From the IMG/VR virus record IMGVR_UViG_3300023220_000082, positions 1-36,323 of that record: a stretch of DNA of 36,323 nt. One strand, given 5' to 3'. This document shows positions 16,401 through 29,950 of this stretch, in pieces. Each line of letters opens with the position of its first letter. The first letter of the stretch is position 1. Position numbers and translations under genes: made by a program. Source of the stretch: a virus. Below the pieces are notes generated by a model. It searched no databases. It was not told where the DNA came from and saw nothing but the letters and a program-made list of their open reading frames with translations.

Positions 16401-16580
16401 TCAATACTCCTCATTTCCATACACCTCATCTATAACCCTCTCGCACTCCTTCTTATCACCTTCCATTTTATATTGAGGTATAAAGGTTTTACAGTCAGCT
16501 TCCTCTAGCATCATCTTTGTATGCGTTAAATTACGGGTGCATTCTTTCCTGTATCCACCTCTTTTAGTTCTTACTCCCAT
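16401..16580 (-). CDS. Small basic protein, last gene of leftward operon
   Basis: 59 residues from ATG 16580, with GGAGAG upstream; longer readings lack a ribosome site. It begins GVRTKRGGYRKECTRNLTH and ends acidic (VIDEVYGNEEY), with three Cys. Start lies inside the HNH-like gene. Function unknown; the basic, Arg/Gly-rich start might bind nucleic acid. Confidence 0.5.
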   Translation of the reverse strand: MGVRTKRGGYRKECTRNLTHTKMMLEEADCKTFIPQYKMEGDKKECERVIDEVYGNEEY

Positions 16581-16890
16581 TAGACTCTCCTTTGTAGGTT
16601 TCGTAAATCTCATCACAGTATTGTAAAATATCCGCGTCAAACCCCCACTCCTTCAGAACCTTATCCTCATTCCCTCCTTTATGTATTGCCCTATGAATGA
16701 AATCGCATACAGTAAATGCGTGGTTATCTCCCGCTTTAATTCCAGTGCCTTTAGATGGACATTGTAAAGAGTGGTGTCCGTATGTTTCGTCTTGGCAAGG
16801 ATGAGGCTTAGTTATTGTGCATGGGCGGAATCTTAGCCATTCAAGAAACTTCTTGTCAACTATGCGCTTTTCTTTGAAGAAGCTATCCAT
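16564..16890 (-). CDS. Putative HNH-type nuclease (DUF968/Ref-like)
   Basis: 108 residues with RFRPCTI, then HPCQDETYGHHSLQCPS, KGTGIKAGDNHAFTVCDFIH and HRAIHKGG. This is the C-x(n)-H-H, G-x-G-x-K-x-x-D, C-x-x-x-H-x-x-x-H layout of small phage HNH nucleases. It could act in recombination or host DNA breakdown. Start ATG 16890 overlaps the end of the HNH-AP2 gene. The metal-binding set is partly unusual, so activity is unproven. Confidence 0.6.
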   Translation of the reverse strand: MDSFFKEKRIVDKKFLEWLRFRPCTITKPHPCQDETYGHHSLQCPSKGTGIKAGDNHAFTVCDFIHRAIHKGGNEDKVLKEWGFDADILQYCDEIYETYKGESNGSKN

Positions 16891-17380
16891 CTAAAGCCTT
16901 TAACACAGCTATACAGTTAAGATTAGCAAATTCCCCGAAGTATTCTTGAGCAGCTTCATTATAAGCAATAGCCGCTTGTTCTTCAGTATCAAAATAACCA
17001 AGGCATTTGGGTTCTCTATCGACTTTTATCATTGCGAACCATCTGTTGTACCCACCCCCCCTCCAGCTTACTCCCTTGTATTTACTCTTCCCACTAACGG
17101 TTTTTCTATTTTGCTGGTTCTGAGCATTGGTGCATACTCTTAGATTGCCCCTTCTGTTATCCAATTTATTGCCGTTAATGTGGTCTGTATGCATACCTTC
17201 TGGAGTATCCATGATTAAGCGGTGCATTAAAATTTTCCTATTCTTTTCTTTGCCGTCTATCTTCCCGACATATTCAGCCCTTATGGCATACCTATCATAA
17301 TGCCATTTCCATTGGTTTAACTGCTCGTAGTCCTTGTCGTCTACCAAGGCTACCTTACCTTGCGTTAGCTTAATTTCCAT
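16883..17380 (-). CDS. HNH homing endonuclease with AP2 DNA-binding domain
   Basis: 165 residues from ATG 17380, behind GGAGG; longer readings lack a site. HNH part: KILMHRLIMDTPEGMHTDHINGNKLDNRRGNLRV shown in pieces as MHRLIM, HTDHINGNKLDNR, NLRVCT; the His-Asn-His set is clear (DHING, N-x-x-N). Linker NAQNQQNRK, then an AP2-type three-strand plus helix unit (SKYKGVSW, YFDTEEQAAIAYNEAAQEYFG, FANLN). Free-standing genes of this type spread by cutting alleles that lack them. The tail after FANLN (CIAVLKALDG) resembles the end of the upstream neighbour, a possible insertion trace. Confidence 0.85.
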   Translation of the reverse strand: MEIKLTQGKVALVDDKDYEQLNQWKWHYDRYAIRAEYVGKIDGKEKNRKILMHRLIMDTPEGMHTDHINGNKLDNRRGNLRVCTNAQNQQNRKTVSGKSKYKGVSWRGGGYNRWFAMIKVDREPKCLGYFDTEEQAAIAYNEAAQEYFGEFANLNCIAVLKALDG

Positions 17381-17702
17381 TTGTATCCTCCAGTGCTTTA
17401 AGAGCTGCAATTGCGACAGCTGTGGGTAGGTGCTCGTGTTCACTAGTCCATACTACGTGATTACCAAGTCCCATAACCTTCTTAAATGAACATATATTAG
17501 GGGCTTGATAAGGACGCTCTAGTATAAAATAGTACTCCAACTCCCGCATCTTCTCCAGTATAGCCATCATTCCTTGTTCATTATGGTAGCAAGCAAACCA
17601 AGCCCCATCACCATGCTGATAACCTAAAGTTTCCTGATATTCTTTTAGCTTTGCGTCGAACACCTTCTTAGCTATAAGCCTGTCTCTTTCTTCATTTGTC
17701 AT
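17370..17702 (-). CDS. Phage ABA-sandwich-like protein, unknown
   Basis: 110 residues: basic helix, then DGAWFACYHNEQGMMAI, a strand pair ILERPYQAPNICSF, and a C-terminal EHLPTAVAIAALKALED. That W-x-C plus LP-x-A-x-x-x-AALKALE ending is common to phage proteins of the ABA-sandwich type. No enzymatic role is known. It overlaps the HNH-AP2 start by 11 bases; that ribosome site lies in this gene's last codons. Confidence 0.55.
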   Translation of the reverse strand: MTNEERDRLIAKKVFDAKLKEYQETLGYQHGDGAWFACYHNEQGMMAILEKMRELEYYFILERPYQAPNICSFKKVMGLGNHVVWTSEHEHLPTAVAIAALKALEDTNGN

Positions 17703-17907
17703 ATCTTTCTATCCCTTCTAATGTACTAAATCCTGCCCAGTCACTATGCTTATAATGCTCCCTATAAGTCCTCTCAGTAACACAAACACCCTTCCAGCTA
17801 TCAGCACTACCTACAGGTATCCTCCACTTACACCCCGGAAACATATGGGGCATAGCATGAGCCTGAGCGCATCCACTAATTAGTAGGCTAAGCAATAAGA
17901 TTCTCAT
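17692..17907 (-). CDS. Small phage lipoprotein
   Basis: 71 residues. MRILLLSLLISGCAQ is a textbook lipoprotein signal: L-I-S-G before Cys13. The mature part of about 59 residues has two further Cys and many aromatics (GCKWRIPVGSADSWKGVC), ending in an acidic stretch. It is coupled to the upstream gene by ATGA. Early phage lipoproteins are known to block superinfection (for example Llp of T5), so that is a candidate role by analogy only. Confidence 0.6.
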   Translation of the reverse strand: MRILLLSLLISGCAQAHAMPHMFPGCKWRIPVGSADSWKGVCVTERTYREHYKHSDWAGFSTLEGIERYDK

Positions 17908-18179
17908 AAGTCTAATGTATGTTGTACTTTCCTTGGTCTGTGCTTCTTGTAAGGACGCTTGCCGTTGCCAGTTAGGAATTTATTGATGTGATCTGCGTGT
18001 CTTTCAAGCTCACCCTCACCAGCATTAAGTATCGTGTCTCTAGTTTTTTTGTCAACGTGAGCCAACACCCCCAGCTTCTCCAGCCCCTCTTCTGGAAATA
18101 GACTTATTTTATAATCCTTGGCAAGAAGGTTGGTTTTACCTCCCATAGAAGATAACTGTAGGTCGTTTATTTTAGACAT
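17904..18179 (-). CDS. Unknown protein with basic C-terminus
   Basis: 91 residues from ATG 18179 behind AAAGGAG; in-frame upstream Met codons lack a site. The sequence begins SKINDLQLSSMGGKTNLL, has a helix with HADHINKFL, and ends GNGKRPYKKHRPRKVQ-type basic residues before a short acidic tip. Possibly nucleic-acid-binding. Coupled at both ends to its neighbours. Confidence 0.5.
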   Translation of the reverse strand: MSKINDLQLSSMGGKTNLLAKDYKISLFPEEGLEKLGVLAHVDKKTRDTILNAGEGELERHADHINKFLTGNGKRPYKKHRPRKVQHTLDL

Positions 18180-18351
18180 CTTGTAGCTCCTTTGCGTAAC
18201 TCTGTGAAACATAATAAGCATTAGCTTTCTGTCCACTTAATACTGGTAGCGCTTGCTTACCTTCCTTTCCATACGTATATCTAACGGGTGTAATATCAGA
18301 TGACATGTTTTCCATTATAATATATTTCTTCCCATTCTTCATAAAGGTCAT
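18172..18351 (-). CDS. Short unknown protein
   Basis: 59 residues, starting at ATG 18351 with GGAGG 8-12 bases upstream. It begins MTFMKNGKKYIIMEN and contains TPVRYTYGKEGKQALPVL. The beta-like start and GKQALPVL segment suggest a small fold. The stop overlaps the following ATG. The site and the tight overlaps on both sides are the evidence that it is real. Confidence 0.5.
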   Translation of the reverse strand: MTFMKNGKKYIIMENMSSDITPVRYTYGKEGKQALPVLSGQKANAYYVSQSYAKELQDV

Positions 18352-18656
18352 AGCTTGTTCCTCCCTTTCTGTAGTTTTCTCATTCTAAAGAAACCCTGAT
18401 GCTCTGGATGATCTTTCTCAAATAACCTTGCATAACCAGCAGCGAAATTATTATTACACTTGAGCGCTTTACCATCTGCCCCTACTGGAGTTTCCCATCT
18501 AATCTTCTCGACAATAGAGTTAGCTCCGAAGTTAGAATAACCCGATCTTATCCTGTCAAACGTCCATCTCTTGAACTCATCATAGATATTAGGATGCTCC
18601 TCATGGTATTTTAAGAAAGTCTTGTCTTGTTCAAACCAGTCAAATAGATCGTTCAT
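18348..18656 (-). CDS. Conserved phage protein of unknown function
   Basis: 102 residues: FKRWTFDRIRSGYSNFGANSIVEKIRWET, then CNNNFAAGYARLFEKDHPE and GFFRMRKL (quoted in parts). The RIRxGYxxFxAxxIxExIRWE and NNNxxxxYARxFxxxHPExxxFFRxR pattern recurs in phage genomes next to recombination genes. No function is established to my knowledge. It has its own GGAGAG site. Confidence 0.55.
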   Translation of the reverse strand: MNDLFDWFEQDKTFLKYHEEHPNIYDEFKRWTFDRIRSGYSNFGANSIVEKIRWETPVGADGKALKCNNNFAAGYARLFEKDHPEHQGFFRMRKLQKGRNKL

Positions 18657-18973
18657 TCTTTCTCTCCATCATAATAAGGTATGGCAATATTGCGTTTAGG
18701 ATGGGACATCCAACATTCGGTATAGGCTATCAGATTAGATGCATCCTCAGTGGTAAGTTGCTTTAGTCCAAACTCTTTAGCAAACCAACCAAGACTATAG
18801 TCACCTGCAAACCTCTCTATCATCATCTCAGGCCAACCATTCTTGGCAGTCTTTACCTTGAGATACAGCTTAACGTTTTCCTTGTTTAGCTTGCTCATAT
18901 CCCCGTCAGCCTTGCAGATTACATCTCTCAAGAAATGAAAGTACTTACTCTGTTCTTTAGTGGCTGGTTCCAT
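18653..18973 (-). CDS. Unknown protein of the recombination/replication cluster
   Basis: 106 residues: KEQSKYFHFLRDVIC, a long central helix region with KLYLKVKTA and WPEMMIERFAGDY, and a C-terminal ECWMSHPKRNIAIPY. It follows the SSB-like gene with a TAATG overlap, suggesting linked expression and maybe linked work on DNA. No family was recognised. Confidence 0.5.
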   Translation of the reverse strand: MEPATKEQSKYFHFLRDVICKADGDMSKLNKENVKLYLKVKTAKNGWPEMMIERFAGDYSLGWFAKEFGLKQLTTEDASNLIAYTECWMSHPKRNIAIPYYDGEKE

Positions 18974-19638
18974 TAGAAGGGCACACCCTTTTGCATCTGC
19001 CTATCAATTTCAGATATAGAAGGCTCATCATAAGCCTCAACAGGAGGACTCTCACTCGCATGATTCCCCGCTGCTTGACTTGGTGTGTCTACAGGCTGTA
19101 TACTACTCGTTGCTTTCACATATTCAGGGCTATCCATGATAATCTTCTGTGTTCCCTCGTTTAGTGAGGCAAATGCGGGTTGGTTAAAGTCACCTAGATC
19201 AAGATGTATTCTAACGTGTTCTGGAGTCAGGTCGCTGTCATTAGGTGCTGCGCTAGTTATCCCTGTGCTTGGCAGCACTTCATCACCAAAAGACTTATGG
19301 GAATAATAGCAGTTTATGTTTTTCCCAAGCATTTTATCGAAGTCTGTAAACACTCCATCCACTACTTGCAGCCCACAAGCCTTAATGAACATAGTTAGCT
19401 TTGCGTTATCACCCAAAACAAGGTTACACCTTTCTCTGGTACAGAGAGCCTCCATCTTACCTTTAAATTCAACTCTAGGACAATTAGGAAACTCGACCCC
19501 TATAGCCACCTGTGGCTTAGCTTCGCCCCCCTCATAGGACTGGCTACCAAGGTCAATTACCTGATAGATAATACCTAAATGCCATTCATTTAACTCTGGT
19601 GTTGCCCACTCTTTCTTCTCGGGTGTTGTAGCTTTCAT
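18973..19638 (-). CDS. Single-stranded DNA-binding-like protein
   Basis: 221 residues. The first 125 look like an OB-fold phage protein: GIIYQVIDLGSQSYEGGE, QVAIGVEFPNCPRVEF, a Cys-containing loop, LTMFIKACGL, then FDKMLGKNINCYYSH. The long tail is Pro/Ser/Ala-rich and acidic and closes DRQMQKGVPF. A disordered acidic tail ending in hydrophobic-Pro-Phe parallels the DDIPF tip with which bacterial SSB proteins recruit partners. Known phage ssDNA-binding proteins share this plan. Has AAGGAG. Function inferred, not proven. Confidence 0.6.
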   Translation of the reverse strand: MKATTPEKKEWATPELNEWHLGIIYQVIDLGSQSYEGGEAKPQVAIGVEFPNCPRVEFKGKMEALCTRERCNLVLGDNAKLTMFIKACGLQVVDGVFTDFDKMLGKNINCYYSHKSFGDEVLPSTGITSAAPNDSDLTPEHVRIHLDLGDFNQPAFASLNEGTQKIIMDSPEYVKATSSIQPVDTPSQAAGNHASESPPVEAYDEPSISEIDRQMQKGVPF

Positions 19639-19853
19639 TATATACTCCTTGGTTTATATTCGATTTCAAATGACTTATCTTCTATTGCTTGGCTTAATTG
19701 TCTGTTATACTCTCCTCTAATTATACTCTTATTCTCCTGCTTTACTTTATCTAGATCCAAACTATCCTCACATAGATTTATTCTATCCAGAACGTCTTGG
19801 TATTCTTCATATAACCTGATAACTCTACAGTTTTCTGGCTCTTCAGCTCTCAT
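19638..19853 (-). CDS. Small charged helical protein, unknown
   Basis: 71 residues, largely helical (IRLYEEYQDVLDRINL, KVKQENKSIIRGEYNRQL), with a beta-like end (SFEIEYKPRSI). Start overlaps the upstream gene by 11 bases with no strong ribosome site, so translation likely depends on coupling. Function unknown. Confidence 0.5.
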   Translation of the reverse strand: MRAEEPENCRVIRLYEEYQDVLDRINLCEDSLDLDKVKQENKSIIRGEYNRQLSQAIEDKSFEIEYKPRSI

Positions 19854-20037
19854 TTTTAGTTACCGTATATCCCTTAGATTCAATTGTTTTTATCATCTGC
19901 TCTATAATATATTCATCATATTCAGCTTGGTAAGTATCAGCAGGTTTTCCAGCAACTAACATGGTTACACCCCCTGTATAGACAGGCTCTATCTCTGTAT
20001 AGTCACCATCTAGAAAGTCTTGAGTTGGATCAGTCAT
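19843..20037 (-). CDS. Small acidic protein, unknown
   Basis: 64 residues from the second of two adjacent ATGs (20037), five bases after GGAGG. It starts MTDPTQDFLDGDYTEIEP, is strongly acidic, and has a helix (YDEYIIEQMIKTIESKG) with a final strand. Acidic small early proteins are often DNA mimics or anti-defence factors, but no feature here proves that. Overlaps both neighbours. Confidence 0.5.
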   Translation of the reverse strand: MTDPTQDFLDGDYTEIEPVYTGGVTMLVAGKPADTYQAEYDEYIIEQMIKTIESKGYTVTKNES

Positions 20038-20161
20038 CATATCCTCCATATTCCCTAATTATTATTTGTGGGTTGTCCTCTAAGTGCTTAACTCTCTTTT
20101 CTAGCTTCTCCACTAGCTTCTCTAGTCTTTGCACTCTTCCTCCTTGACCAGGCTCTATCAT
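20030..20161 (-). CDS. 43-residue coiled-coil micropeptide
   Basis: Begins MIEPGQGGRVQRLEKL and continues with Leu at heptad spacing (RLEKLVEKLEKRVKHLED), an ideal short coiled coil, then NPQIIIREY. It carries the next gene's GGAGG in its last codons. The start at 20161 overlaps the upstream gene's stop. It could be an oligomerising regulator; function unknown. Confidence 0.45.
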   Translation of the reverse strand: MIEPGQGGRVQRLEKLVEKLEKRVKHLEDNPQIIIREYGGYDD

Positions 20162-20412
20162 TTGGTTTCTCCGATTGCATCATTGATTAACTCTTCTATT
20201 GTGGTAGCACATCTATCCTTGCTTAGGTCACCGTATTTCACGCATTCTTCTGACTCGGTTACTCCCTTATCAACTTCAACCTTAGCCTCTTTAGGCAGGA
20301 AGAAAGCTACATTAGCAACCGCAGCCCCAAAACATACAGCGGTTATTACTAGGCATCCCCAACTAATTATTGAGTCTTTAATGGCTTTTTTCCTTGTATT
20401 GTTAGTGTACAT
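20158..20412 (-). CDS. Membrane-anchored small protein
   Basis: 84 residues from ATG 20412 behind AGGAG. A basic start (MYTNNTRKKAIKDS) precedes one membrane span, about 14-38 (IISWGCLVITAVCFGAAVANVAFF), then a charged tail with two Cys and a terminal helix (TTIEELINDAIGE). The basic N-terminus implies an outside-facing tail, about 45 residues in the periplasm. Function unknown. Confidence 0.5.
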   Translation of the reverse strand: MYTNNTRKKAIKDSIISWGCLVITAVCFGAAVANVAFFLPKEAKVEVDKGVTESEECVKYGDLSKDRCATTIEELINDAIGETK

Positions 20413-20572
20413 ATTCACTCTCCTCATCTGTTAAAGCCTCTACAAAGTCTTGTTGTATCTCCTCAGCTAGCCCTATGGCCCTGTCGTGTTGCCCTGTTTT
20501 TAAGTGCGTTATTATAGCTTCAAGACCGCCAGCAGTTCTGCCAAGAAGCTCTACTAATTCCTCGTCTGTCAT
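20402..20572 (-). CDS. 56-residue acidic helical protein
   Basis: MTDEELVELLGRTAGGLEAI, then THLKTGQHDRAIGLAEEIQQ and an acidic end. It looks like two or three helices. It carries the Shine-Dalgarno of the membrane protein after it and overlaps both neighbours. Unknown function; supported by the chain of overlaps. Confidence 0.45.
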   Translation of the reverse strand: MTDEELVELLGRTAGGLEAIITHLKTGQHDRAIGLAEEIQQDFVEALTDEESEYVH

Positions 20573-20856
20573 AACCACCCCAATGCTATAAGAGCTATAA
20601 GAGTAAGAGCTATCAGTAATGTAGCATAGAAAGCCCCTGTTATCCTTCCTTCCATTCGACTATCCTGCCCAGCTAGTCTAGCTAATTCAGCATCCTGTCT
20701 TTCTCTTGTGATGGCGTAGTACTTTTGTTGCACTCCTGTCCACTCTCGATCTGTCCAGAACCTCTCATTACATCTACTGGCTATAGTGCCCCAACCCATC
20801 TCTTTTTTGCGTAACTTAAATATAAGCTCAACTTCTTCTGGTGTGTATCTATCCAT
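20569..20856 (-). CDS. SANT/Myb-like domain with C-terminal membrane anchor
   Basis: 95 residues. Residues 4-50 read like a short SANT/Myb-type helix-turn-helix (YTPEEVELIFKLRKKEMGW, TIASRCNERF, WTDREWTGVQQKYYAITRER) with spaced Trp. Residues about 73-95 are a membrane span at the extreme C-terminus (AFYATLLIALTLIALIALGWL minus its last bases). A tail-anchored protein with a possible DNA-binding head is unusual. GGGGAAAG precedes the ATG. The fold assignment is by eye and tentative. Confidence 0.5.
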   Translation of the reverse strand: MDRYTPEEVELIFKLRKKEMGWGTIASRCNERFWTDREWTGVQQKYYAITRERQDAELARLAGQDSRMEGRITGAFYATLLIALTLIALIALGWL

Positions 20857-21029
20857 TATCTTTCCCCTACTATTTTCATTATCTTGTGGTTGCGTTCTAT
20901 GCGGTGGGTTAATGCGGCCCTTGTCATTCTATCTATGTGGGTTAACTCGCTTACGCTATCCCTGAGGCCCCCTAGCCATTCCGTAGATTCACCCAAACAT
21001 TCCATTAGTTCTTTTGTGTCCTCGTTCAT
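20856..21029 (-). CDS. 57-residue helical protein
   Basis: NEDTKELMECLGESTEWLGG, then RDSVSELTHIDRMTRAAL and a basic helix (HRIERNHKIMKIVGER). Its last codons hold the Shine-Dalgarno of the next gene. Starts at TAATG with AAGGAG upstream in the previous gene. Function unknown. Confidence 0.45.
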   Translation of the reverse strand: MNEDTKELMECLGESTEWLGGLRDSVSELTHIDRMTRAALTHRIERNHKIMKIVGER

Positions 21030-21214
21030 TACGCTCTCCTTGCCCAGCCATTTGCTACAAACTGCCTAGCTAAATGATCGTCTACCGAGTAAGTCTCTCC
21101 ACATTCATACATGTAAGTTGTAAACCCATCATTAGTACCGCGTCTGGTTTGTGTCATTGTTATCTTATGCTCTTGGCGCATGTCTGATATTTCGTCGTCA
21201 AGTTTGTGTTCCAT
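21029..21214 (-). CDS. Small protein, unknown
   Basis: 61 residues: MEHKLDDEISDMRQEHKI, an Arg/Thr segment, then FTTYMYECGETYSVDDHLARQF and WARRA. The YMYECGETY...DDHLA part looks like a small beta-hairpin plus helix. TAATG overlaps occur at both ends; the start lacks a strong ribosome site and probably relies on coupling. No family recognised. Confidence 0.5.
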   Translation of the reverse strand: MEHKLDDEISDMRQEHKITMTQTRRGTNDGFTTYMYECGETYSVDDHLARQFVANGWARRA

Positions 21215-21327
21215 TACATTACCCTATCTAATATTACAAAAAACGTGAAGCCCATTAGTAGTAAGCAGAATATACCATAACCAATTCCAGGCATCTCTCT
21301 GCTCTGTTTAGAATAGTTCTTACCCAT
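21214..21327 (-). CDS. 37-residue single-span membrane micropeptide
   Basis: A polar basic start (MGKNYSKQSREM), then one membrane segment (IGYGIFCLLLMGFTFFVIL) and DRVM. A Shine-Dalgarno of AGGGGGAG lies just before the ATG, and stop and start overlap both neighbours as TAATG. The predicted topology is N-in. Micropeptides of this size in phages often modulate membrane proteins or lysis; no specific role can be read. Confidence 0.45.
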   Translation of the reverse strand: MGKNYSKQSREMPGIGYGIFCLLLMGFTFFVILDRVM

Positions 21328-21650
21328 TACTCCCCCTTTGCTAGTTTGAGTGCTTTTAGCGCATTACTAATGGCTTCAGGTGGGTGGTCGTGGATGGCAT
21401 CACCAAACTCACCTTCTGCAAGCTGTATAAATTCATTTGTCAGCCTATCCAAAGCCTCTACAAGCTCATCATGCACATTAACACAATGTACTATGCGCTT
21501 AGCGTTGGCTTTATGTTCATCACCTTTACCCTCTACTTTAGCTATTACTCCACACTTACCTCCAGCTATCGCATACTTATGATTGGTTTCCGTAAAGTGG
21601 TCATCGGTTTGCACTAAAATTGGCCCCCAAGGTGTTGCTGTATGTTTCAT
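21327..21650 (-). CDS. Conserved phage protein (HTATPW... type), unknown
   Basis: 107 residues. It starts MKHTATPWGPILVQTDD, followed by KYAIAGGKCGVIAKVEG, HKANAKRIVHCVNVHDELVE and a C-terminal helix with EAISNALKALKLAKGE. The pattern HTxTPW, IAxV, ANAxxIVxxVNxHxELVEAL is frequent in phage early regions and has no settled function. GGGGAAG precedes the ATG. Confidence 0.55.
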   Translation of the reverse strand: MKHTATPWGPILVQTDDHFTETNHKYAIAGGKCGVIAKVEGKGDEHKANAKRIVHCVNVHDELVEALDRLTNEFIQLAEGEFGDAIHDHPPEAISNALKALKLAKGE

Positions 21651-21748
21651 TATCTTCCCCTACTATGTTTATATAAATACATCAGATCAGATTCTTCGTC
21701 CTGACAGCCTGTTAGTGTTAGCAACATAATTATTAATAAGACTTTCAT
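21650..21748 (-). CDS. 32-residue lipoprotein micropeptide
   Basis: MKVLLIIMLLTLTGCQDEE: a clear lipoprotein signal with L-T-G before Cys15, giving a mature lipopeptide of about 18 residues. AGGGGGAAG lies just upstream. Its first 62 coding bases overlap the end of the single-span membrane gene in another frame, an arrangement like Rz/Rz1. Role unknown: a second o-spanin-like element or an exclusion lipoprotein. Confidence 0.5.
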   Translation of the reverse strand: MKVLLIIMLLTLTGCQDEESDLMYLYKHSRGR

Positions 21749-21896
21749 AACTTCCCCCTAGTATTAAATGACACTCCATAACCTCGCGCCCTTCCTTTAA
21801 ACATGCCTCAATCGTACAACACCGGAACCACCAAACTAATAAACCTACAATAGATAATGCTATTAATGCCCATTTATATTGTTTTAATTTATTCAT
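21687..21896 (-). CDS. Single-span membrane protein, first gene of the leftward operon
   Basis: 69 residues from ATG 21896, behind AAGGAG; the longer reading to 22064 would run through the promoter region and lacks a site. N-terminal span about 8-25 (WALIALSIVGLLVWWF), then four Cys within about 25 residues (RCCTIEACLKE, MECHL), and a polar tail. The 3' part encodes the lipoprotein micropeptide in another frame. Cys-rich periplasmic part suggests disulphides. Function unknown. Confidence 0.5.
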   Translation of the reverse strand: MNKLKQYKWALIALSIVGLLVWWFRCCTIEACLKEGREVMECHLILGGSYESLINNYVANTNRLSGRRI

Positions 21897-21917
21897 CGGT
21901 AGCTCCTTGTTACCCTT

Positions 21918-21945
21918 ATTATGCACAAAGAAAAACATATTACAA
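21918..21945 (-). promoter_or_regulatory. Leftward early promoter candidate
   Basis: On the minus strand: TTGTAA (21945-21940), 16 bases, CATAAT (21923-21918). It lies just upstream of the first leftward gene (ATG 21896) and is back-to-back with the rightward promoter. Confidence 0.45.
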
Positions 21946-21976
21946 CAACTAATTTTATTTATTTTGTTTTTTATTG

Positions 21977-22005
21977 TTGCATTAGTAATAAGCCTCATGT
22001 ATAAA
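21977..22005 (+). promoter_or_regulatory. Rightward early promoter candidate
   Basis: TTGCAT (21977-21982), exactly 17 bases, TATAAA (22000-22005), ahead of the gene at 22028 with its AAGGAG. An AT-rich, T-rich tract lies just upstream (21950-21976) and could act as an UP element. Host sigma-70 use is inferred. Confidence 0.6.
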
Positions 22006-22027
22006 GAGAATAACCAAGGAGATATAA

Positions 22028-22198
22028 ATGACGGAAGATAAAAATAAGGTAGTTGGCTCTTCATTAGATCCAGAACACCAAGAAAAACTAGAGAAGATAA
22101 AGAATGAGGGTATGCATGGAAATGACTCTAATACTATCCGCGTATGTATTGTGAGGACTTATAACCAGATGTTTGGTGATGACAATGGCAAAGCCTAA
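22028..22198 (+). CDS. Ribbon-helix-helix-like regulator, first gene of rightward operon
   Basis: 56 residues. A basic/beta start (KNKVVGSSLDPEHQEKL) is followed by LEKIKNEGMHGNDSNTIRVC and IVRTYNQMFG. This is the RHH layout: short strand, helix A, a G-N/S-N turn, helix B ending hydrophobic. Its place 23 bases after the promoter and at the head of the operon fits an autoregulator of the divergent promoters. AAGGAG site. The assignment is by pattern and is moderate. Confidence 0.55.
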   Translation: MTEDKNKVVGSSLDPEHQEKLEKIKNEGMHGNDSNTIRVCIVRTYNQMFGDDNGKA

Positions 22199-29201: not shown

Positions 29202-29285
29202 TAACCCCCTTGTATCTATGTGCGCTATGTGTTAGAACATAACTAGCTTAATAAGTAATTCTCTTATACATCCATTCGGGGGTTA
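29202..29285. repeat. Nested inverted repeats upstream of the replication gene
   Basis: TAACCCCC (29202-29209) and GGGGGTTA (29278-29285) are perfect 8-base arms. Inside lie TGTAT/ATACA (29211-29215, 29266-29270) and a hairpin TATGT-GTTAGA-ACATA (29226-29241). This fills most of the non-coding gap 29174-29320. It may be part of the replication origin, a regulator site or a structured leader. Confidence 0.5.
29210..29238 (+). promoter_or_regulatory. Possible promoter for the replication gene
   Basis: TTGTAT (29210-29215), 17 bases, TAGAAC (29233-29238) with TG one base upstream (extended -10). It matches consensus only partly and overlaps the inverted repeats, so the call is weak. Confidence 0.3.
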
Positions 29286-29320
29286 CTGTCAATAGACGAG
29301 GTAACTAATGGAGGTGTTTG

Positions 29321-29950
29321 ATGATAAAAAAATCATTCATATTGTACCACGATATCTGTGAAGTCTTCGATGATTTGGCAGATGAAGAAGCTGGTAAATT
29401 AATCAAAGAAATCGTTAAAACAGCAAGGACGATAACCCACGATAACCCACAACAACCCACTGGGTTAACTGGGTTACTCAAGGCTGTGTTTAATCCCTTT
29501 AAGTCGCACCTACTAAGGGATTCAGAGAAATACCAAACTATAGTAGAGCGTAACAAAATGAACGGAAGTAAGGGTGGTAGACCAAAGGTTAAAACCCAAC
29601 GTAACCCAAAAAAACCCGATAATGTTAATGATAAGGATAATGATAAGGAAAAGAAAGGGGTAGTACGCGCGATACGTTTAGAAAAATATACAGATAAGGA
29701 AGGAGACTTAACAGATAGAGAAACTTTACCTGCTGAGTTTTACGATACTGCAATGAAGGAACATGATTGGACTGATAAGCAGCTTTGGTGGGTATGGTAT
29801 AATTTCTGGGATTACTTTGACTCTGCCAATGCTAAGGTTCCTGCCAAGAAAGACTGGTTACAGACTTGGAGAGCTTGGTGCAGGAAGGAGAATCCACCAG
29901 TAGAATTTAACAAAGAGGAAGGATATGGCAAGAAAAAATCAAGATATTGA
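29321..29950 (+). CDS. Replication initiator-like protein (DUF6291-like N-terminus)
   Basis: 209 residues from ATG 29321 behind GGAGG (a TTG just before it is less likely). N-terminal KKSFILYHDICEVFDDL, DEEAGKLIKEIVKTA, LKAVFNPFKSHLLRDSEKY and QTIVERNKMNGSKGGRPK follow the DUF6291-type pattern of phage replication-region proteins. A polar linker (NVNDKDNDKEKKG) precedes a C-terminal domain with LWWVWYNFWDYFDSANAKVP and DWLQTWRAWCRKE, as in O-like initiators. Its DNA holds AACCC iterons and an AT-rich tract, so it likely binds its own gene to start replication and load a host helicase. Function inferred. Confidence 0.6.
   Translation: MIKKSFILYHDICEVFDDLADEEAGKLIKEIVKTARTITHDNPQQPTGLTGLLKAVFNPFKSHLLRDSEKYQTIVERNKMNGSKGGRPKVKTQRNPKKPDNVNDKDNDKEKKGVVRAIRLEKYTDKEGDLTDRETLPAEFYDTAMKEHDWTDKQLWWVWYNFWDYFDSANAKVPAKKDWLQTWRAWCRKENPPVEFNKEEGYGKKKSRY
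29434..29618. repeat. AACCC iteron arrays, candidate replication origin
   Basis: Array 1: AACCCAC starts at 29434, 29444 and 29454, exactly 10 bases apart, followed by inverted TGGGTT at 29461 and 29470. Array 2: AACCC starts at 29593, 29603 and 29613, again exactly 10 apart. An AT-rich tract with repeated AATGATAAGG follows (about 29619-29655). Ten-base spacing puts each site on one face of the helix and is not a codon multiple, so it is not simply a protein repeat. The plan resembles lambda ori inside gene O. Confidence 0.65.

Follow-up and report, generated by a model that had tools for sequence, protein, structure and literature searches.

The stretch of DNA considered here, the window, comprises 36,323 nucleotides (nt), positions 1 to 36,323 of the virus record IMGVR_UViG_3300023220_000082. 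The gene at 29321-29950 encodes a protein of the DUF6291 family and carries two phased arrays of the short repeat AACCC, followed by an AT-rich tract. We read this feature as a phage replication origin that lies inside its own initiator gene and is bound by the DUF6291 protein, with a probability of about 0.8. The DNA lattice is real, is under DNA-level selection, is conserved in the family and goes together with the protein's tail and with replication genes. Judged from the sequences compared, the best reading is that DUF6291 proteins are initiators whose iterons and unwinding tract are situated in, or just behind, their own genes.

The AACCC arrays of the window

The features of the locus, all on the plus strand, are:
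29321..29950, plus strand: candidate replication initiator gene, 209 amino acids (aa), DUF6291 (PF19808); ATG start, GGAGGT at 29310-29315
29333..29587, plus strand: DUF6291 domain, residues 5-89; three predicted helices (10-17, 21-40, 51-83), then a basic tail
29434..29475, plus strand: iteron array 1; AACCC at 29434, 29444 and 29454, inverted GGGTT at 29462 and 29471
29573..29587, plus strand: codons of the basic tail GGRPK, the tail feature that predicts AACCC repeats among relatives
29593..29617, plus strand: iteron array 2; AACCC at 29593, 29603 and 29613, in the linker directly behind GGRPK
29618..29655, plus strand: AT-rich repeat tract, candidate unwinding element; GATAATGTTAATGATAAGGATAATGATAAGG..., 76% A+T against 58% for the window
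29633..29947, plus strand: C-terminal part of the putative initiator; no Pfam match above cut-off

A reading made earlier from the sequence alone had listed the six AACCC starts and two inverted TGGGTT copies (29461 and 29470), and a recheck of the sequence found every coordinate exact. The gene thus contains six AACCC and two GGGTT; AATGATAAGG occurs at 29627 and 29639, downstream of array 2. The arrangement AACCC-N5-AACCC is present four times in the whole window, always inside 29321-29950, while shuffled sequence contained it 0.07 times on average and never four times. A scan of both strands found AACCC triplets at 9-11 nt spacing nowhere else in the window. Successive copies in each triplet start at codon positions 2, 0 and 1 and therefore are read in three frames. 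When synonymous codons were shuffled within the gene, AACCC pairs 9-10 nt apart numbered 0.22 on average compared to the 4 observed, a value reached in 0 of 20,000 shufflings; for the number of AACCC sites the same procedure gave P = 0.0026.

The protein belongs to DUF6291 with 62.2 bits against a curated cut-off of 27.2 (E 5.4e-17, residues 5-89). According to a structure model built from 39 sequences (predicted local distance difference test, pLDDT, 86), array 1 encodes residues 38-52, i.e., the loop joining helix 2 and helix 3. In this loop the window protein is 7 residues longer than the eight relatives first aligned with it. An array in the inter-helix loop is shared by loci L019, L033 and L064, with AACCC at gene positions 106, 116, 126 and 135. 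Array 2 has the usual location, as nearly all relatives carry their arrays directly behind the tail. A Foldseek search of viral models returned DUF6291 proteins, some of them named replisome organizer, and a weak fold link to one model of another family, DUF1376 (probability 0.95, E 0.29). An Rfam search gave no match.

The gap upstream of the gene holds TAACCCCC (29202-29209) and GGGGGTTA (29278-29285), which are inverted relative to each other and separated by about 70 nt. They may be additional binding sites or serve as an operator.

DNA-level selection in DUF6291 genes

For an analysis across the family we used 69 distinct DUF6291 genes with GGRP or GGKP tails and examined the 105 nt behind the tail; the null model redrew the codons for an identical protein in 300 rounds. 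AACCC/GGGTT sites behind the tail numbered 264 against 47 expected (maximum of the 300 recodings: 63), and neighbouring pairs at 9 or 10 nt numbered 91 against 3.7. The sites are distributed over the codon frames as 94/69/65. Pair distances peak at 9, 10, 20, 29, 30, 39 and 40, and the best lattice period among the relatives is 9.82 nt, made of steps of 9 and 10; a period of 10.5 fits far worse. The ten-base phasing proposed initially is exact in the arrays of the window, yet among relatives the spacing of 9.8 nt is neither exactly 10 nor 10.5. Inverted copies, too, have preferred positions: in 29 of 36 cases they follow an AACCC at 8 nt, and in 22 of 33 they precede the next one by 12 nt.

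The lattice does not respect the end of the reading frame. In L098 two in-frame stops lie inside the lattice, which runs on beyond them, and in L092, L093 and L097 the reading frame likewise closes at or just behind a site. All copies of an array may also switch in concert, to AACCG in L084 and to AACCT in L057. The tract behind the lattice has 73% A+T compared to 64% in the rest of the genes and is the richer part in 57 of 64 genes. In this tract 171 of 185 serines are encoded by AGT against 88 of 550 elsewhere, a bias to which repeat expansion could contribute. A W-rich C-terminal motif was found in 3 of the 69 proteins and is not general in the family.

The sequence-only reading had considered selection on DNA likely and had asked whether related phages keep phased AACCC despite protein change. 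The use of three frames, the synonymous nulls that are exceeded and the continuation past stops bear out the former; as to the latter, phased AACCC persists in distant DUF6291 genes although its frame and its location within the gene differ, and it may even extend beyond stop codons. The refuting condition set in that reading, loss of the repeats by relatives with the protein retained, thus did not overturn it. This is a clear example of a protein linker determined by DNA sites and not the other way round.

In several prophage copies (L092, L093, L097, L098, L233, L235-L237) the DUF6291 domain stands alone, as a protein of about 90 aa whose stop codon lies directly behind the tail. Behind such copies, e.g., L098 around 2750-2830, the repeats follow as non-coding DNA or cross stops.

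The lattice was also searched for blindly, using two DNA-only patterns and no protein information. Of 191 open reading frames (ORFs) over the sites found, 94 were DUF6291, 76 DUF1376 and 21 others, the latter mostly antisense frames or 3' fragments of DUF6291/DUF1376 genes. Many of the DUF1376 ORFs represent a single prophage gene in nearly identical copies, so that independent cases are fewer. The feature, rightly read at the outset as a candidate origin, is real and general to a large family.

Pairing of protein tails and DNA repeats

Each protein was assigned to a class according to the residues that follow helix 3, and repeats were counted behind these; loci fetched by the AACCC pattern were excluded. 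For DUF1376 a second query was used, since near-identical loci from one clade dominated the results of the first. At least three AACC[CG] are present in 83 of 100 DUF6291 genes with GGRP-like tails and in 3 of 46 with other tails (Fisher 2e-19, a value which ignores kinship). In DUF1376 the corresponding figures for AACC[CG] are 28 of 32 for GGRP tails and 0 of 9 for others (Fisher 2e-6, again ignoring kinship). DUF6291 proteins with RW tails have AACC[CG] in 0 of 26 cases; CGTATA/GTATAC/ATACGA is found in 12 of these 26 and in 1 of the 120 remaining genes. Where a DUF6291 gene is devoid of AACCC, the tail is usually changed as well and another repeat often occupies the same place. Exceptions exist in both directions: NSKLK tails with AACCC (L088, L119, L177, L221) and GGRP tails without it (L074, L080). 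For tree pairs which differ in tail and repeat, the mean was 4.2 in the same sense and 0.1 in the opposite sense in DUF6291 (8 supported pairs), and 3.9 and 0 in DUF1376 (4 supported pairs). These independent pairs are consistent with the tail-repeat rule, but their number does not suffice for significance in either family taken alone.

The two families themselves are not demonstrably related. An hhalign comparison of the DUF6291 and DUF1376 (PF07120) alignments gave a probability of 4.7%; therefore the tail and repeat that they share reflect either the exchange of a module or a very remote relationship. It is tempting, if still somewhat short of an even bet, to regard the basic tail as an exchangeable origin reader, GGRPK for AAACCCA in both families and RW for CGTATAC, with copies one turn apart building a continuous filament that melts the RNT tract. 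If this were true, the protein tail could reveal the origin in a great many phages and prophages that are as yet uncharacterised.

Several variants deserve mention. In the RW-tailed loci L105, L233, L239, L416, L419, L425, L428, L439 and L446, CGTATAC-type repeats about 10 nt apart replace AACCC; such genes are found in bacterial genomes and viral contigs alike. A DUF6291 gene from a Flavobacterium phage, with the annotation 'replication protein' (L011 about 2820-2890; also L251), has CGCATAGCGATAAAAA-like repeats in place of AACCC. Further repeat types, GCAAA, GCCAT and AGCGAT, were noticed by eye and in k-mer counts, with no null model.

Neighbouring genes

Of 20 ORFs that directly follow DUF6291 genes in viral contigs, 15 have matches to DnaB helicases, primase-helicases or DnaC/IstB-type loaders. 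In six annotated phages a replication gene is next, or next but one, to the DUF6291 gene; the products are a DnaB-like helicase, a P-loop NTPase in the helicase place, 'replication protein P' and a primase/helicase. These neighbourhoods support the original guess that 29321-29950 is an initiator gene. The window is from a metagenomic virus; its isolated relatives include Vibrio phage MG592450 and Shewanella phage OR636717. Elsewhere in the window, a block of minus-strand genes at 16401-22064 lies between plus-strand blocks, and the GC skew reverses with the block.

Proposed mechanism and alternative explanations

Binding, melting and helicase loading are the parts of the origin claim which we infer. 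The DUF6291 protein would bind the AACCCA iterons of the two arrays (3+2 and 3 copies), probably through the last part of helix 3 together with the basic tail NGSKGGRPK. A copy spacing of about one turn would let monomers pack tightly side by side; at 9.8 compared to 10.5 nt, the row of sites would wind slowly round relaxed B-DNA or need slight overtwisting. The bound complex may then melt the adjoining AT-rich RNT tract. The variable C-terminal part, presumed to be a helicase- or loader-recruiting region, would bring in the replicative helicase or its loader. The candidate origin proposed at the outset is supported, as far as sequence comparison can tell, by the conserved phased lattice, the AT-rich tract and the replication-gene neighbours of relatives.

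Several points weigh against it. The window's own following genes match no helicase or loader in Pfam; cumulative GC skew varies with the strand on which the genes lie, shows no turn at 29.5 kb and proved uninformative; a Foldseek search of solved structures (PDB) gave no useful match, so that a DNA-binding fold would be conjectural; and most of the DUF6291 loci compared were gathered by queries which contained the GGRP tail.

The lattice might instead be an operator, from which the DUF6291 protein represses or times early transcription inside its own gene while replication starts elsewhere. Iteron-binding proteins often repress their own genes, and an AACCC/GGGTT pair is present upstream of the gene as well (29203, 29280). 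Yet the arrays are inside or behind the coding region and not over a promoter, a promoter scan remained at chance level and revealed no promoter-like site in the arrays, and an origin accounts better for the AT-rich repeat tract and the helicase neighbours. We regard an operator as improbable. Quite improbable, too, is that the lattice serves as a binding site for a host protein, for partition or for packaging. Such a role gains from the fact that we infer the binding of DUF6291 to the lattice; it is hard to reconcile with a repeat sequence that goes with the DUF6291 or DUF1376 tail and with a nearly fixed position directly behind that tail.

It is hardly credible that the repeats are a feature of the protein, a flexible linker rich in proline (NP, KP, TQ, SGL) and maintained by selection on the protein. 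Linker residues do recur among family members. However, the sites occupy all three frames and outnumber the synonymous null fivefold, the lattice goes on behind the stop in L098 and others, and all copies switch together in L084 and L057. On account of frames, synonymous null and stop codons we have rejected a protein-level repeat, as far as sequence can tell.

Comparison with known systems

Phased iterons under DNA-level constraint inside the putative initiator gene and an adjoining AT-rich tract (29618-29655) correspond to the layout of lambda-type phages. The DUF6291 repeats have a core of 5-6 bp and recur at intervals of about 9.8 nt, in contrast to the longer iterons of lambda, whose spacing is roughly 20 bp; the DUF6291 repeats also vary by subfamily together with the protein tail. 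A Pfam scan of the window protein (E <= 0.01) yielded DUF6291 alone and no match to lambda O. Therefore, the likeness to lambda drawn in the sequence-only reading is one of layout rather than of demonstrated ancestry.

The origin-in-initiator layout is already known because lambda and Stx phages have it, the O gene containing iterons and an AT-rich tract in its middle and having replication genes next to it (PMC7466680), and so does SPP1, in which oriL sits within gene 38, the gene of the replisome organizer gp38, with helicase loader and helicase in the same set (PMC6316719). In contrast to this similarity in layout, the Pfam scan detected no relation between gp38 and DUF6291.

Pfam lists both DUF6291 and DUF1376 as of unknown function. 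Among open-licence papers we found none on DUF6291, and four for DUF1376 together with replication, with no origin topic in their titles or abstract starts. In the open-licence literature, judged mostly by titles and abstracts, there seems to be no description of the role of the DUF6291 family, of the one-turn lattice or of the tail-repeat rule. We propose that DUF6291 proteins function as origin-binding replication initiators, a proposal which the same signature would extend to the GGRP-tailed part of DUF1376. Many phages and prophages thereby receive a candidate replication origin that is located to the base pair, and the pairing of tail and repeat makes initiator specificity and its evolutionary switching testable with small synthetic sites.

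DUF1376 is a second N-terminal domain family with a GGRPRK tail and an AACCC lattice in many members, yet apart from the tail its profile does not resemble that of DUF6291. Its members without GGRP, e.g., YdaU of the Escherichia coli Rac prophage, have no AACCC lattice and carry other repeats. Rac ydaU was considered as an experimental anchor for AACCC and rejected, as it has neither GGRP nor an AACCC lattice; therefore it provides no direct proof. In E. coli K-12 Rac, ydaU (L225 6120-6977) has TGTTCAAAC/GTTTGAACA-like repeats behind the tail and adjoins ydaV, a putative ATP-binding protein. It is possible that these repeats are an in-gene Rac origin.
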